A stretch of DNA of 61,659 nucleotides from Desulfuromonadales bacterium (lineage in GTDB: Bacteria > Desulfobacterota > Desulfuromonadia > Desulfuromonadales > BM103): assembly GCA_027065695.1 (NCBI GenBank), contig JAMONP010000104.1, positions 1 through 61,659 on the forward strand. The letters run 5' to 3'. The position numbers and the translations under genes are program-made. The notes beneath the pieces are model-generated. The model was not told the DNA's origin. It worked only from the letters and a program-made list of their open reading frames with translations, and did no database searches. Positions 53,091-60,664 of the stretch are shown here, in pieces (within the stretch, counting starts at the first letter, position 1; each line of letters opens with the position of its first letter).

Positions 53091-53567
53091 ATGTTCTCAG
53101 CGTATATCAATAATGAGACATCGTGGCGGCCGATTCTAAAGCATAAAGTTTTTATTGAGTCTTTGGAATGGATACATAAAAAATCAGCTTTGGTCGGTTT
53201 TGGTGATTATCTGTTTGATCAGTCTGGCTGGTATGCAAATGTTCATGGGTATGAAACTCAGGATCTGTCACGGTGTTGCTGGGAGAATCACAAGCATACG
53301 GTAGATATCCAATATCTGATTTCTGGTAGTGAGTGTATCCACTGGATAGATACGGATCGGTTAGGACCTCCGGTACGCTACCTGGTTGAAAAGGATAGGG
53401 AAGAGTTTGCACTACCTTTAGAGGAAGTTTCACGAGTCGTGATGCTCTCTGGTATGTTTGCTATCTTTATGCCCGGTGATGCACATTGTCCAAAAATTGT
53501 TTCGGGAGAGCCGGAGATAATTAAAAAGGTTGTCGTAAAAATTCCGATTGATTTGCTCGGTAAATGA
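53091..53567 (+). CDS. YhcH/YjgK/YiaL-family protein
   Basis: 158 residues of the YhcH (DUF386, cupin-like) family, with the conserved [15 protein letters not shown] and [14 protein letters not shown], whose His and Glu residues bind a metal in this family. Relatives appear in sialic-acid and sugar-acid catabolic operons and are proposed to open or epimerise sugars. Here it lies beside a CMP-sugar-type nucleotidyltransferase, so a sugar-isomerising step in synthesis is plausible. A broken paralogue lies at 48770. Confidence 0.85.
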
Positions 53568-53619
53568 TTGATGGCTGTACGACTTGGCCATTAGAACTCT
53601 TCACGTTAAGGCTTGTGAG

Positions 53620-54372
53620 ATGAATCTTGATTTTAATGGAAAGACAGTCCTCGTTACCGGTGCTACGAAAGGGATTGGTGCTGCAATAGCCTCTGGATTT
53701 GAGTCTCTTGGAGCCTCGCTGATATTGACTGGGACCTTGCAAGAACAAGTTGACGCGTTAAATGAGGAAAATAAGTGTTCTGGTAAAGACAATGTTAAAT
53801 GGGTTCAGGTGGATTTCTCATGTGATAAGTCGACAGATTTATTTCTTGGGAAAATTGAGGATGGTCCACAAATTCATGTGTTGATCAATAATGCAGGGGC
53901 AAACCTTATTCGTCCGATTGACCAGGTTTCTGCAGACGATCTTGATTACCTGCTGTCCATAAACCTCCGGGCACCATTATTGCTCTGCAAATCGGTGAGC
54001 CTGAACATGAAGAAAAACTCTTACGGCCGCATCGTCAACATTGCTTCGATCTGGAGCATCATTACAAAGTCTGGGCGAGCAATGTATTCAGCAACCAAGA
54101 GTGGCCTTGTAGGTATGACTAGGGCTACTGCGGTCGATTTGGCTCCGCACGGCATTCTCGTTAACGCTGTATCGCCTGGATTTACCGACACGGAATTGAC
54201 CGCAAAAACCCTTACTACTGATGAACGTGAACAACTCTTTCAACAGGTTCCTTTGGGGCGTTTTGCGACCCCCGAAGAAATTTCAAAAGCAGTATTGTTT
54301 CTGGCTAGCGATCTAAATACCTACATAACCGGACAGAATCTGGTGGTTGATGGAGGTTTTGTATGTGTTTGA
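53620..54372 (+). CDS. Short-chain dehydrogenase/reductase
   Basis: 250 residues of the classical SDR type, with TGATKGIGAAIA (NAD(P) loop), NNAGAN, catalytic Ser in NIASIWS, YSATKSG (Tyr and Lys) and a late NAVSPGFTDTELTAKTL. It ends with the FabG-like GQNLVVDGGF. ATG 53620 follows TAAGGC and is preferred over the non-ATG start 36 bases upstream. The 3' end overlaps the cyclase gene by 10 bases, so the two are coupled. It probably reduces or oxidises a hydroxyl on the cassette's product. Confidence 0.9.
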   Translation: MNLDFNGKTVLVTGATKGIGAAIASGFESLGASLILTGTLQEQVDALNEENKCSGKDNVKWVQVDFSCDKSTDLFLGKIEDGPQIHVLINNAGANLIRPIDQVSADDLDYLLSINLRAPLLLCKSVSLNMKKNSYGRIVNIASIWSIITKSGRAMYSATKSGLVGMTRATAVDLAPHGILVNAVSPGFTDTELTAKTLTTDEREQLFQQVPLGRFATPEEISKAVLFLASDLNTYITGQNLVVDGGFVCV

Positions 54373-58524: not shown

Positions 58525-58535
58525 AGGCCAATTTA

Positions 58536-59546
58536 ATGATTAAGTGTGGAATTATCGGCTTTGGCAAAATGGGAAAAATTCGAGCCAATGCTATCGAAAA
58601 TTCAGGTAAGGGTCGAATCGTTGCTGTTTATGATATTAACCCTCCATTAAACTGTTCGTACAAGGTCACGAAGAGTCCTGCGGAGATTATCGAATCCTCA
58701 GAGGTTGATACAGTTTTTGTTTGTACACCGAATTCTTATATCCCGGTTCTGTGTATTCAGGCTCTGAACGCTGGAAAACATGTTTTTTCCGAAAAACCTC
58801 CCGGTTTTAACGCTCAACAGGTGGAGGAGGTTATTATTGCTGAAAAGGCCGCTTCTGACCGAAAGCTGATGTATGGTTTTAACCATAGGCATCATCGGAG
58901 TATCCAGAAAATGAAGCAGGTTGTGGAATCTGGTGATTTGGGTCGTGTGCTTTGGGTGCGTGGACGTTACGGCAAAGAAGTTGATCAATCTTTTTTCGAC
59001 GGGTGGCGCGCAGACCCTCAAATAGCCGGGGCAGGGATCCTGCTTGACCAAGGCATTCATATGATCGACCTGTTACTCCACTTAGGTGGTGATTTTGATG
59101 AAGTGTCGTCTATTGTATCGAATCTTTTCTGGAAGATAGACGATATTGAAGATAATGTTTTTGCAATATTCCGTAACAGCAAGTCAGGTACCTGCGCCTC
59201 CATTCACTCCACTATGACGCAGTGGCGATATCTGTTTTCTCTCGAAGTGTTTCTGGAAGGTGGTGCGCTGATATTGAATGGGCTGAAAACGTCTTCCGGT
59301 GCTTACGGTGATGAAAATCTGGCAATAAAACGCAATCCTACTCATTTACAGGATGGCCGTTTCGAAAGTGAAGAACATGTTGTCTATCATGTAGATACCT
59401 CTTGGCAGTCGGAGATTGACCATTTTTTTGACTGCATCGCACAGAATCAGAATGTTCGTTACGGAACTTCAACCGATGCACTGAATGTAATGAAGATGAT
59501 TGACCGGATTTATGCAGCTGGAAGGCCAAAGGAGATCGCCTCTTGA
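58536..59546 (+). CDS. Gfo/Idh/MocA-family oxidoreductase
   Basis: 336 residues with the N-terminal Rossmann fold (GIIGFGKMGKIRANAI), the conserved SEKPPGFNAQQVEEV (Lys of the EKP motif) and the C-terminal alpha/beta domain with GAGILLDQGIHMIDLL (His of the GxxxDxGxHxxD motif). Such enzymes oxidise a ring hydroxyl of sugars or inositols with NAD(P). It starts 12 bases after the hydroxyacid dehydrogenase, and its stop overlaps the next ATG, so the four genes are one unit. Confidence 0.9.
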   Translation: MIKCGIIGFGKMGKIRANAIENSGKGRIVAVYDINPPLNCSYKVTKSPAEIIESSEVDTVFVCTPNSYIPVLCIQALNAGKHVFSEKPPGFNAQQVEEVIIAEKAASDRKLMYGFNHRHHRSIQKMKQVVESGDLGRVLWVRGRYGKEVDQSFFDGWRADPQIAGAGILLDQGIHMIDLLLHLGGDFDEVSSIVSNLFWKIDDIEDNVFAIFRNSKSGTCASIHSTMTQWRYLFSLEVFLEGGALILNGLKTSSGAYGDENLAIKRNPTHLQDGRFESEEHVVYHVDTSWQSEIDHFFDCIAQNQNVRYGTSTDALNVMKMIDRIYAAGRPKEIAS

Positions 59547-60664
59547 TGGACAAAAAAGATCAACAATTCATTGATGATTATTTCTCTTACTATCGGCGTG
59601 TCTTCTCAGAGACTGACATTCGGGAAGAGCTGCTTGCTTTTAGTGCTGTTTGCAAAGGTGTCAAGGCAAGTGGCAATAAGTTGATTTTTGCTGGTAATGG
59701 TGCGAGTGCGTCGATCTCGAGCCATGCTGCGACAGATTTTACTCAGCATGCCAAGGTGCGTTCGATCTGCTTTAACGATCATAGTTTGATTACCGCTTTC
59801 GCAAATGACTATGGCTACGAAAATTGGGTTATGCGTGCGCTGGAAGCCTACGCTGATCCTGGTGATGTCGTTGTGCTGATCAGTTCAAGTGGCTCTTCTC
59901 CAAATATTGTGAATGCGGCAAAGTATGCTCTTGAAAAAAGTTTTGAGGTTGTTACTTTCTCTGGTTTCTCTCCAGAGAATGTGTTGCGCAGTTTAGGTAG
60001 TCTGAATTTTTGGGTAGACAGCAATGCTTATAACTTTGTTGAAACGACTCATTTGATCTGGGTTTTAACTGTTGCCAATATCATGGAGCAGGATAACGAT
60101 GACAATGCGGCCCTTGATGAGCATCTCTCAGGGCATCAGAAGGCTTTGTTCTCTATCGATTACAGTTTGGAACTTCTCAAACTGAGAGACTTGTGCCGTG
60201 AGGTATCAGTTAGGGGCGGCAAAATGATTTTTTCTGGCAATGGTGGCAGCTCCTCGACCTCCAGTCATGCAGCTACTGATTTTACGAAGCAGAGCAAAGT
60301 ACGCGCGATTGCATTTAACGATCATAATTTGATGAGTGCTTATTCGAATGATTATGGACAAGAATATTGGATTGCCCAATGCATTAAAGATTATGCCAAT
60401 GCAGAAGATGCAGTTTTTCTGCTCAGTTGTAGTGGTGAATCGAAAAATGTGATTAATGCTGCCCGGGTCGCTCGGGAAAAGGGTTTGACGGTAGTAACTT
60501 TTACCGGATTTGATCCTGGGAACAGTTTGCGATCTTTGGGAAATATTAACTTTTGGGTTGATAGCAGCAACTATAATATTATAGAAGCCTTACACTCGAT
60601 TTTGATTTTTTGTATTGCGGATCTCTTGATTGTCAACTCTGTTATTTCGGAGTCTGTTAAATGA
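59546..60664 (+). CDS. Tandem SIS-domain protein (two phosphoheptose-isomerase-like modules)
   Basis: 372 residues made of two similar SIS modules (about 25-185 and 205-365). Each has GNGASASISSHAATDF or GNGGSSSTSSHAATDF, NDYGYENW or NDYGQEYW, SSSGSSPNIVNAA or SCSGESKNVINAA, and FWVDSNAYN or FWVDSSNYN. They resemble GmhA, but the late metal-binding His of GmhA seems replaced by Leu or Phe when aligned by eye. GmhA-type enzymes act on sedoheptulose 7-phosphate, the substrate of several AroB-like cyclases, which connects it to the gene at 54363. ATG 59546 overlaps the previous stop. Confidence 0.82.
   Translation: MDKKDQQFIDDYFSYYRRVFSETDIREELLAFSAVCKGVKASGNKLIFAGNGASASISSHAATDFTQHAKVRSICFNDHSLITAFANDYGYENWVMRALEAYADPGDVVVLISSSGSSPNIVNAAKYALEKSFEVVTFSGFSPENVLRSLGSLNFWVDSNAYNFVETTHLIWVLTVANIMEQDNDDNAALDEHLSGHQKALFSIDYSLELLKLRDLCREVSVRGGKMIFSGNGGSSSTSSHAATDFTKQSKVRAIAFNDHNLMSAYSNDYGQEYWIAQCIKDYANAEDAVFLLSCSGESKNVINAARVAREKGLTVVTFTGFDPGNSLRSLGNINFWVDSSNYNIIEALHSILIFCIADLLIVNSVISESVK

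Follow-up and report, generated by a model that had tools for sequence, protein, structure and literature searches.

The window analysed here is an entire contig of 61,659 nt (JAMONP010000104.1) from a Desulfuromonadales bacterium. At 53091-60664 it carries a block of eight closely packed open reading frames (ORFs) on the forward strand, part of a gene cluster that may be cut at the right end of the contig. The block very probably encodes a conserved route, built around a sugar phosphate cyclase of the TIGR04425 family, to an acidic surface-glycan residue activated with cytidine monophosphate (CMP). We put the probability of this reading at roughly 0.85, based on what sequence indicates of the family membership of the cyclase, the co-occurrence of the module, its catalytic motifs, an acid-type active site and the fold of a CMP-synthetase-like enzyme. 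All eight ORFs were recovered by an ORF check and Pfam assignments concur for each; the block is present and correctly described in a first-pass annotation of the same DNA. The spacing of the genes ranges from a 10-nt overlap to a 178-nt gap. The former lies between the genes of a short-chain dehydrogenase/reductase (SDR) and the cyclase, which had been called fused by overlap; the overlap stands, but the genes are not fused.

The cyclase gene occupies 54363-55439, and Pfam recognizes in its product the N- and C-terminal parts of 3-dehydroquinate synthase (DHQS; PF01761/PF24621). It is preceded by genes for a YhcH/YjgK/YiaL (DUF386) protein, possibly a 2-keto sugar acid anomerase (53091-53567; PF04074, 88.8 bits), and for the SDR oxidoreductase (53584-54372; PF13561, 179.5 bits), in which the motifs TGATKGIG and YSATK are found and an internal ATG at codon 13 is the likelier start. 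A nucleotidyltransferase with a CMP-sugar synthetase fold, related to NeuA, PseF and KdsB (55454-56233; PF02348, 54.3 bits), and a group 1-type glycosyltransferase (56352-57533; PF13692, 55.2 bits) follow, the latter a member of the locus that lies outside the conserved module. The remaining ORFs of the block encode a short D-2-hydroxyacid dehydrogenase of 270 aa (57712-58524; PF02826, 123.4 bits), a Gfo/Idh/MocA oxidoreductase with the motifs GFGKMG, EKP and DQGIHMID (58536-59546; PF01408/PF22725) and a GmhA-like protein with tandem SIS domains (59543-60664; PF13580/PF01380). Overlaps of 4 nt link the Gfo/Idh/MocA gene to the SIS gene and the SIS gene to the next gene on the same strand, which encodes an MptE-like (DUF115-type) protein and candidate CMP-sugar-dependent glycosyltransferase (60661-61506; PF01973, 38.1 bits). 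Catalytic motifs are intact in the SDR and the Gfo/Idh/MocA protein, as are the Arg, Glu and His motifs of the D-2-hydroxyacid dehydrogenase (NTARG, DVFWEEP and TPHIA). The Pfam match of this dehydrogenase runs through the NAD-binding domain only, and GAGRIG is present in its translation though the NAD-motif pattern gave no match.

The cyclase family and its active site

The cyclase scores 438.6 bits against TIGR04425, above the curated NCBIfam cut-off of 400, and misses the AroB equivalog TIGR01357 (271.8 bits against a cut-off of 305). NCBIfam classes TIGR04425 as a hypothetical equivalog, under the name "AroB-related putative sugar phosphate phospholyase (cyclizing)", and the family is already catalogued. 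A separate DHQS is encoded in the window's genome, on contig C3, in aroK-aroB order (aroK recognized by eye), and at least one further DHQS is present in all seven named genomes with a cyclase family member that were checked. A tree of 121 rows, from which seven duplicates had been removed beforehand, includes 81 family rows, namely the window's cyclase and those of 80 of the 83 loci compared below; three loci are absent because they have no usable full-length cyclase ORF. All 81 family rows fall on one side of a branch and 33 of the 34 AroB-labelled rows on the other, the exception being a Prochlorococcus row (L136). A 2-deoxy-scyllo-inosose synthase (DOIS) and a probable aminoDHQS lie on the AroB side via long branches, and their placement is unsure. 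The nearest row to the window's cyclase, L037, is 63% identical to it. A plasmid search with the cyclase gave no match of at least 60% identity in 115 records; the 60 matches listed, all at or below 35% identity and mostly annotated as AroB or unannotated, were used only as a source of reference cyclases. A redundant housekeeping AroB is rejected on the score below the AroB cut-off, the position outside the AroB clade and the separate aroB in the genome. The first outcome that the first-pass annotation had named as refuting its reading, a cyclase grouping with housekeeping AroB in a genome lacking any other aroB, thus did not occur. If this assignment is right, some genes of polysaccharide loci annotated as 3-dehydroquinate synthase are misnamed.

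The zinc-ligand positions Glu178, His240 and His256, previously named as intact, are so occupied. Alignment to DHQS places in the window's cyclase an acid-type set of Lys219, Arg233 and Asn237, which we take to be Lys250, Arg264 and Asn268 of the Aspergillus nidulans enzyme, residues that presumably hold the substrate carboxylate. The set is intact in all 34 AroB-labelled rows and in 80 of the 81 family rows, the exception being L069 with Thr in place of Asn. It is also intact in L120, a probable aminoDHQS encoded next to a 3-deoxy-D-arabino-heptulosonate 7-phosphate (DAHP) synthase and a shikimate dehydrogenase. Both Arg and Asn are changed in the DOIS row (L117, so called by its annotation), in a row that we take to be a demethyl-4-deoxygadusol synthase (DDGS; L137, with M/D/A at the three positions) from a MysB-like methyltransferase downstream, and in two EboD-type rows (L118 and L129, both H/S/D), the second of which sits between UbiA- and TIM-barrel-like genes. 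An unassigned row, L119, has lost the Arg alone. The comparison consists of DOIS, DDGS and EboD-type rows, with no 2-epi-5-epi-valiolone synthase (EEVS) or 2-epi-valiolone synthase (EVS) row included, and loss of the set as a mark of cyclases acting on sedoheptulose 7-phosphate is a rule drawn from these rows. Since the set is kept in the family and lost in the DOIS, DDGS and EboD-type rows, the substrate of the cyclase is likely to be carboxylated rather than sedoheptulose 7-phosphate, and is probably a carboxylated heptulosonate 7-phosphate. Sedoheptulose 7-phosphate as the direct substrate, the earlier suggestion, is unsupported.

The family is mostly identical to AroB across the 17 positions compared. 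Position 135, a Gly (GGK) in all 34 AroB-labelled rows, is replaced by Ser (GSK) in 74 of the 81 family rows. At position 181, 33 of the 34 AroB-labelled rows have Lys, one being unreadable, and 36 of the 81 family rows, including the window, have His. These differences count against plain DAHP as the substrate. The window's cyclase thus has in common with AroB the PF01761/PF24621 fold family, the zinc-ligand positions and the acid-type residues, and differs from it in its score below the AroB cut-off, its separate clade, the GSK motif, the His181 of its group and its polysaccharide context. DOIS, EEVS, DDGS and EboD belong to the same superfamily, and no cyclase of these types is known to work with a CMP-sugar-synthetase-like enzyme. 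The rows of the DOIS, DDGS and EboD types, unlike the window's cyclase, do not have the Arg and Asn of the acid-type set. Recruitment of the sugar phosphate cyclase superfamily outside aromatic amino acid synthesis is described in two earlier papers (PMC5133447, PMC4426668).

The Prochlorococcus locus L136 and locus L036 harbor related cyclases beside an SDR and an apparent thiamine-diphosphate (IlvB-like) enzyme. The acid-type residues are kept in both cyclases, and this gene set is possibly a second type of pathway.

Recurrence of the gene set and CMP activation

Recurrence was assessed in 83 loci picked by likeness to the window's cyclase, consisting of 79 of the best 80 of 380 relatives in named genomes (L045 was left out as a copy of L035) and four from a search of the host's phylum. 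The controls were 20 rmlB-centred loci from the host's phylum only, a narrower taxonomy than that of the test loci. Several search seeds were drawn from the test loci themselves, and the Fisher tests below are uncorrected for relatedness. The best 80 loci span Bacteroidota, Thermodesulfobacteriota, Pseudomonadota, Cyanobacteriota, Spirochaetota, Chloroflexota, Elusimicrobiota and others, and cultured hosts of the module include Dyadobacter luticola, Mucilaginibacter segetis, Draconibacterium mangrovi and Devosia subaequoris.

A uniform ORF scan revealed an SDR in 79 of the 83 loci and in none of the controls; in the same number of loci it is encoded on the strand of the cyclase, no more than 400 nt upstream of that gene. 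Gfo/Idh/MocA proteins (68/83 versus 1/20), D-2-hydroxyacid dehydrogenases (67/83 versus 0/20) and SIS proteins (58/83 versus 0/20) recur likewise, as do NeuA-like (32/83) and KdsB-like (38/83) nucleotidyltransferases, each in none of the 20 controls; one or the other is present in 65 of the 83 loci. Less frequent companions are an HpcH aldolase (34/83), a methyltransferase (23/83), a PF04199-type protein (18/83), and YhcH-like (16/83), NeuB-like (12/83) and MptE-like (10/83) proteins, all at 0/20 in the controls, and a HisC-like aminotransferase (13/83 versus 1/20). The 83 loci include truncated contigs, and the 52 loci of at least 17 kb were therefore counted separately: 47 contain three or more of SDR, Gfo/Idh/MocA, D-2-hydroxyacid dehydrogenase and SIS proteins, and 48 contain a NeuA-like or KdsB-like enzyme. 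The gene set thus co-occurs well beyond the window, contrary to the second outcome that the first-pass annotation had named as refuting its reading, a set that does not recur. The full set is not universal; in the Microcystis locus L110 the SDR alone was labelled beside the cyclase by a procedure whose ORF filter hid genes in GC-rich loci. The family cut-off is reached in 5 of 395 genomes of the host's phylum, the window's own included, and a search of 30 of the host's close relatives, several of them incomplete genomes, found no family member at E <= 1e-95. The module is sporadic, as is usual for surface loci.

The nucleotidyltransferase is related by both sequence and fold to the enzymes that activate sialic acids and 3-deoxy-D-manno-oct-2-ulosonic acid (Kdo), consistent with the earlier description. 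Its best PDB sequence match is PpNeuA, a synthetase of CMP-3-deoxy-D-glycero-D-galacto-nonulosonic acid (CMP-Kdn; 8.7e-9), and its predicted model (predicted local distance difference test, pLDDT, 83.6) finds the same enzyme as best Foldseek match (1.3e-16). Ranks 1-29 of that search are CMP-Neu, -Kdn, -Pse or -Kdo synthetases or an unnamed cytidylyltransferase, and rank 30 is IspD. The equivalog cut-offs of PseF (57 of 205.7 bits) and KdsB (17.2 of 155.2) are missed. The changed nucleotide loop reported earlier is real, with PVLLGST in place of the PAR.GSK of several relatives. Among 14 aligned rows, a Cys-rich insert (C79, C87 and C92, then H97) is common to the window, L037, L049, L071 and L109 only, the other nine having a shorter loop at this position; residues 80-93 are modelled at a pLDDT under 50, and the insert is possibly a metal site. 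A C-terminal extension is present in the enzymes of L071, L109, L053, L062, L047 and L099. It is a cupin in both that were scanned, L071 and L053, and perhaps replaces a separate YhcH function.

The two nucleotidyltransferase types tend to exclude each other, with 27 loci containing the NeuA-like enzyme alone, 33 the KdsB-like alone, five both and 18 neither (n = 83; Fisher p 1.3e-5). In a tree from which six duplicates were removed, the 38 KdsB-like rows of the module form a clade apart from nine KdsB rows, termed housekeeping because they do not belong to the module (support 100/98). Twelve KdsB-like rows make up a subclade (100/100), and 10 of their source loci have a HisC-like gene, as labelled under the same ORF filter. 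The HpcH aldolase and the HisC-like aminotransferase occur together in none of the 83 loci (Fisher p 5.5e-4), and this exclusivity, together with the HisC-linked subclade, suggests variant products of one core.

The MptE-like protein was modelled at a pLDDT of 82.7. Its top Foldseek match is human ST8SiaIII with CMP-3FNeu5Ac (E 1e-4, template modelling (TM) score 0.37) and its second an archaeal MptE-type pterin pyrophosphokinase. A profile of 17 relatives matches seven bacterial alpha-2,3/2,8-sialyltransferase sequences (3.3e-5 to 1.3e-4), which we take to be CstII, whereas the single sequence gave no sialyltransferase match in the PDB. Pfam CST-I is found weakly (0.0094) in one of the 17 family members. 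The predicted structure and the family profile are suggestive, though no proof, of a CMP-sugar transferase, perhaps a GT42-like sialyltransferase, and CMP activation is supported by the modelled fold of the nucleotidyltransferase and weakly by this sialyltransferase-like neighbour.

The YhcH protein passes the subfamily model TIGR00022 (69 bits, cut-off 45.5) and falls under the cut-off of the N-acetylneuraminate anomerase model NF040884 (74.2 against 160). The SIS protein misses the GmhA model TIGR00441 (145.1 bits against 209.45). Alignments of the window-type SIS place Asp at the GmhA Glu position and reveal that the second His is absent in both halves, residues that in GmhA are presumably catalytic. 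The tandem arrangement was seen in the window alone. Alignment of 52 SIS ORFs of the other loci shows 51 of at most 237 aa, a single-domain length, and a sole long one (371 aa, from L109) whose N-terminal half is not SIS-like. A search of the window's genome for HpcH/HpaI aldolases gave a single match, at 20.5 bits, short of the 25-bit cut-off. A pyruvate aldolase of that family is therefore an unlikely source of the carboxyl group in this genome, and the candidate is unsupported there although the aldolase is present in 34 of the 83 loci.

Proposed route and competing explanations

In the route proposed here, the SIS protein would draw on the sedoheptulose 7-phosphate pool to supply a heptose 7-phosphate, the Gfo/Idh/MocA enzyme would oxidize it at C1 to a heptonate phosphate, and the D-2-hydroxyacid dehydrogenase would oxidize C2 to yield a 2-keto-heptonate 7-phosphate, the non-deoxy analogue of DAHP. 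These three steps would require neither phosphoenolpyruvate (PEP) nor a pyruvate aldolase, which fits the window's genome. The YhcH protein may equilibrate the anomers of this intermediate. The TIGR04425 enzyme would then carry out C5 oxidation, phosphate elimination and a DHQS-like ring closure to a polyhydroxylated cyclohexanecarboxylic acid (a hydroxy-dehydroquinate), the ketone of which the coupled SDR could reduce. The NeuA/KdsB-like enzyme would place CMP on the alpha-hydroxy-acid carbon, a mimic of C2 in Kdo and sialic acid, and the sialyltransferase-like protein would transfer the activated residue. Such a carbocyclic acid is ranked first as the exact end product, tentatively and at somewhat less than even odds.

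Each part of this scheme has a counterpart in known systems. The pathways of the nonulosonic acids (neuraminic, pseudaminic and legionaminic acids and Kdn) and of Kdo have in common with the module a NeuA/PseF/KdsB-fold enzyme, YhcH and the sialyltransferase-like neighbour; the module core differs in having a sugar phosphate cyclase in place of a PEP-condensing synthase (NeuB-like proteins are present in 12 of the 83 loci only). In the validamycin route a cyclase product is activated by a nucleotidyltransferase, as proposed here, to GDP-valienol; that route uses guanosine diphosphate (GDP) and a neutral cyclitol, whereas in the window the enzyme is of the CMP type and the residue is probably acidic. 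Bradyrhizose is a carbocyclic sugar of a surface glycan. This bicyclic sugar of Bradyrhizobium lipopolysaccharide is tied to a cluster of 11 genes, among them one for a dTDP-glucose dehydratase, in a paper whose text lacks the word "dehydroquinate" (PMC4743980). Bradyrhizose synthesis is accordingly unsupported as the function of the module, the two being set apart on the published description of the cluster only.

Several points weigh against the proposed route. The order of the steps is guessed, and heptose isomerization by the SIS protein appears to be its weakest step, as the second GmhA-type His is absent. The carboxylate-holding role of the acid-type residues in DHQS is presumed. The branch that separates the family has a Shimodaira-Hasegawa-like approximate likelihood ratio support of 86, under the 95 mark, and reaches 97 only with L136 inside. 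The resemblance of the MptE-like model to sialyltransferases is weak, and the HpcH aldolase and HisC-like aminotransferase are unexplained by the core scheme. A further difficulty is chemical: a CMP group borne by a carbon that lacks a ring oxygen makes a poor glycosyl donor, and sialyltransferases normally take true ulosonic acids, both of which disfavour a carbocycle. A carbocycle combined with CMP needs CMP on a tertiary alpha-hydroxy acid, an unusual chemistry. The cyclase speaks for a carbocycle; an anomeric acid centre is favoured by YhcH, by the sialyltransferase-like neighbour and by the CMP synthetase.

The alternative ranked second, and unlikely, is that the cyclase acts on 2-keto-heptonate 7-phosphate as a phosphate lyase without an aldol step. 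The resulting 2,6-diketo-7-deoxy acid would be reduced by the SDR to a 7-deoxy-heptulosonic acid, a true 2-ulosonic acid resembling a short relative of pseudaminic acid, which would be CMP-activated and transferred. The CMP-ulosonate synthetase fold, the relationship of YhcH to sialate anomerases and the sialyltransferase matches of the MptE-like family profile all fit an anomeric acid, the absence of ring closure avoids the unusual CMP chemistry, and the tight coupling of SDR and cyclase (79/83 loci) and the departures from AroB at positions 135 and 181 are in keeping with it. A lyase departs from DHQS, however, with which most of the 17 positions agree, and the enol intermediate of DHQS cyclises readily unaided, so that the enzyme would need to block a spontaneous reaction. 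Quite improbable is a third reading, in which DAHP or an epimer is converted to dehydroquinate or an isomer and then by the SDR and Gfo/Idh/MocA proteins to a quinate-type residue, the SIS protein and D-2-hydroxyacid dehydrogenase serving other sugars. The active site matches AroB at most positions compared and DAHP is made by cells having the shikimate pathway, but a further DHQS is present in all eight genomes tested (the window's and the seven named), positions 135 and 181 differ in many family rows, and an independent role does not explain why SIS, Gfo/Idh/MocA and D-2-hydroxyacid dehydrogenase proteins accompany the cyclase in most loci.

The version of the first-pass annotation, in which sedoheptulose 7-phosphate is cyclised and the product, a neutral cyclitol of the valiolone type, is activated afterwards, is less probable again. 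It draws on the GmhA-like SIS protein and on heptulose-using relatives in the superfamily (DDGS, EEVS), and is opposed by the active-site comparison, in which the acid-type set is retained in nearly the whole family and the DDGS, DOIS and EboD-type rows have changed Arg and Asn, and by the CMP-ulosonate-type synthetase and D-2-hydroxyacid dehydrogenase, which indicate an acid. Of the inferred sequence from heptulose phosphate through a cyclic product to CMP activation, the CMP-synthetase fold upholds the last part; the heptulose phosphate is unsupported as the direct cyclase substrate, and an ulosonic acid accounts at least as well as a cyclitol for the CMP chemistry and the sialyltransferase-like neighbour. 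Least probable by far is an ordinary polysaccharide locus in which chance has placed a redundant copy of AroB among sugar genes that have nothing to do with it. The family is sporadic, occurring at E <= 1e-95 in one of 31 close genomes (the window's own), yet chance assembly is contradicted by the cross-phylum counts in 83 loci against 20 controls, the separate cyclase clade and the module-specific KdsB-like clade, and is rejected.

In line with the earlier claim of an undescribed pathway, the open-access full-text literature, which leaves subscription journals mostly outside, contains among the matches listed no description of the cyclase family's pathway, the gene set or the residue. The combination proposed here links a sugar phosphate cyclase to a CMP-sugar-acid pathway. 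If the proposed reading is right, a glycan building block of many phyla, marine groups included, has gone undescribed, and the module would provide a new enzymatic way of making carboxylated cyclitols or deoxy-ulosonic acids. A bolder extension, doubtful at present, is that "pseudo-ulosonic acids", carbocyclic analogues of sialic acid and Kdo, may be a widespread and so far overlooked class of surface residues in phyla that range from Bacteroidota and Thermodesulfobacteriota to those of marine Prochlorococcus and SAR86. A DHQS-like cyclase would make them from a 2-keto-heptonate 7-phosphate, and sialyltransferase-like proteins would move them as CMP derivatives.

Neighbouring genes

The first-pass annotation had placed Wzm/Wzt genes beside the block. 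Pfam supports the Wzt-like ABC ATPase at 44815-46026 (ABC_tran, 87.6 bits; Wzt_C at 26.0 is under its cut-off of 30.4), while the ORF at 43951-44808 gave no Pfam match and is presumed to be Wzm from its position. A B12-binding radical SAM protein (46083-47558) adjoins the Wzt-like gene, and a group of radical SAM-like proteins was labelled in 9 of the 83 module loci under the ORF filter already mentioned. An ORF of 883 aa at 49035-51686 contains a HAD domain (424-592) and a membrane C-terminal part that is UbiA-like by eye, and a UbiA gene is also present at 42128-42973. A role with a polyprenyl-linked sugar is possible.

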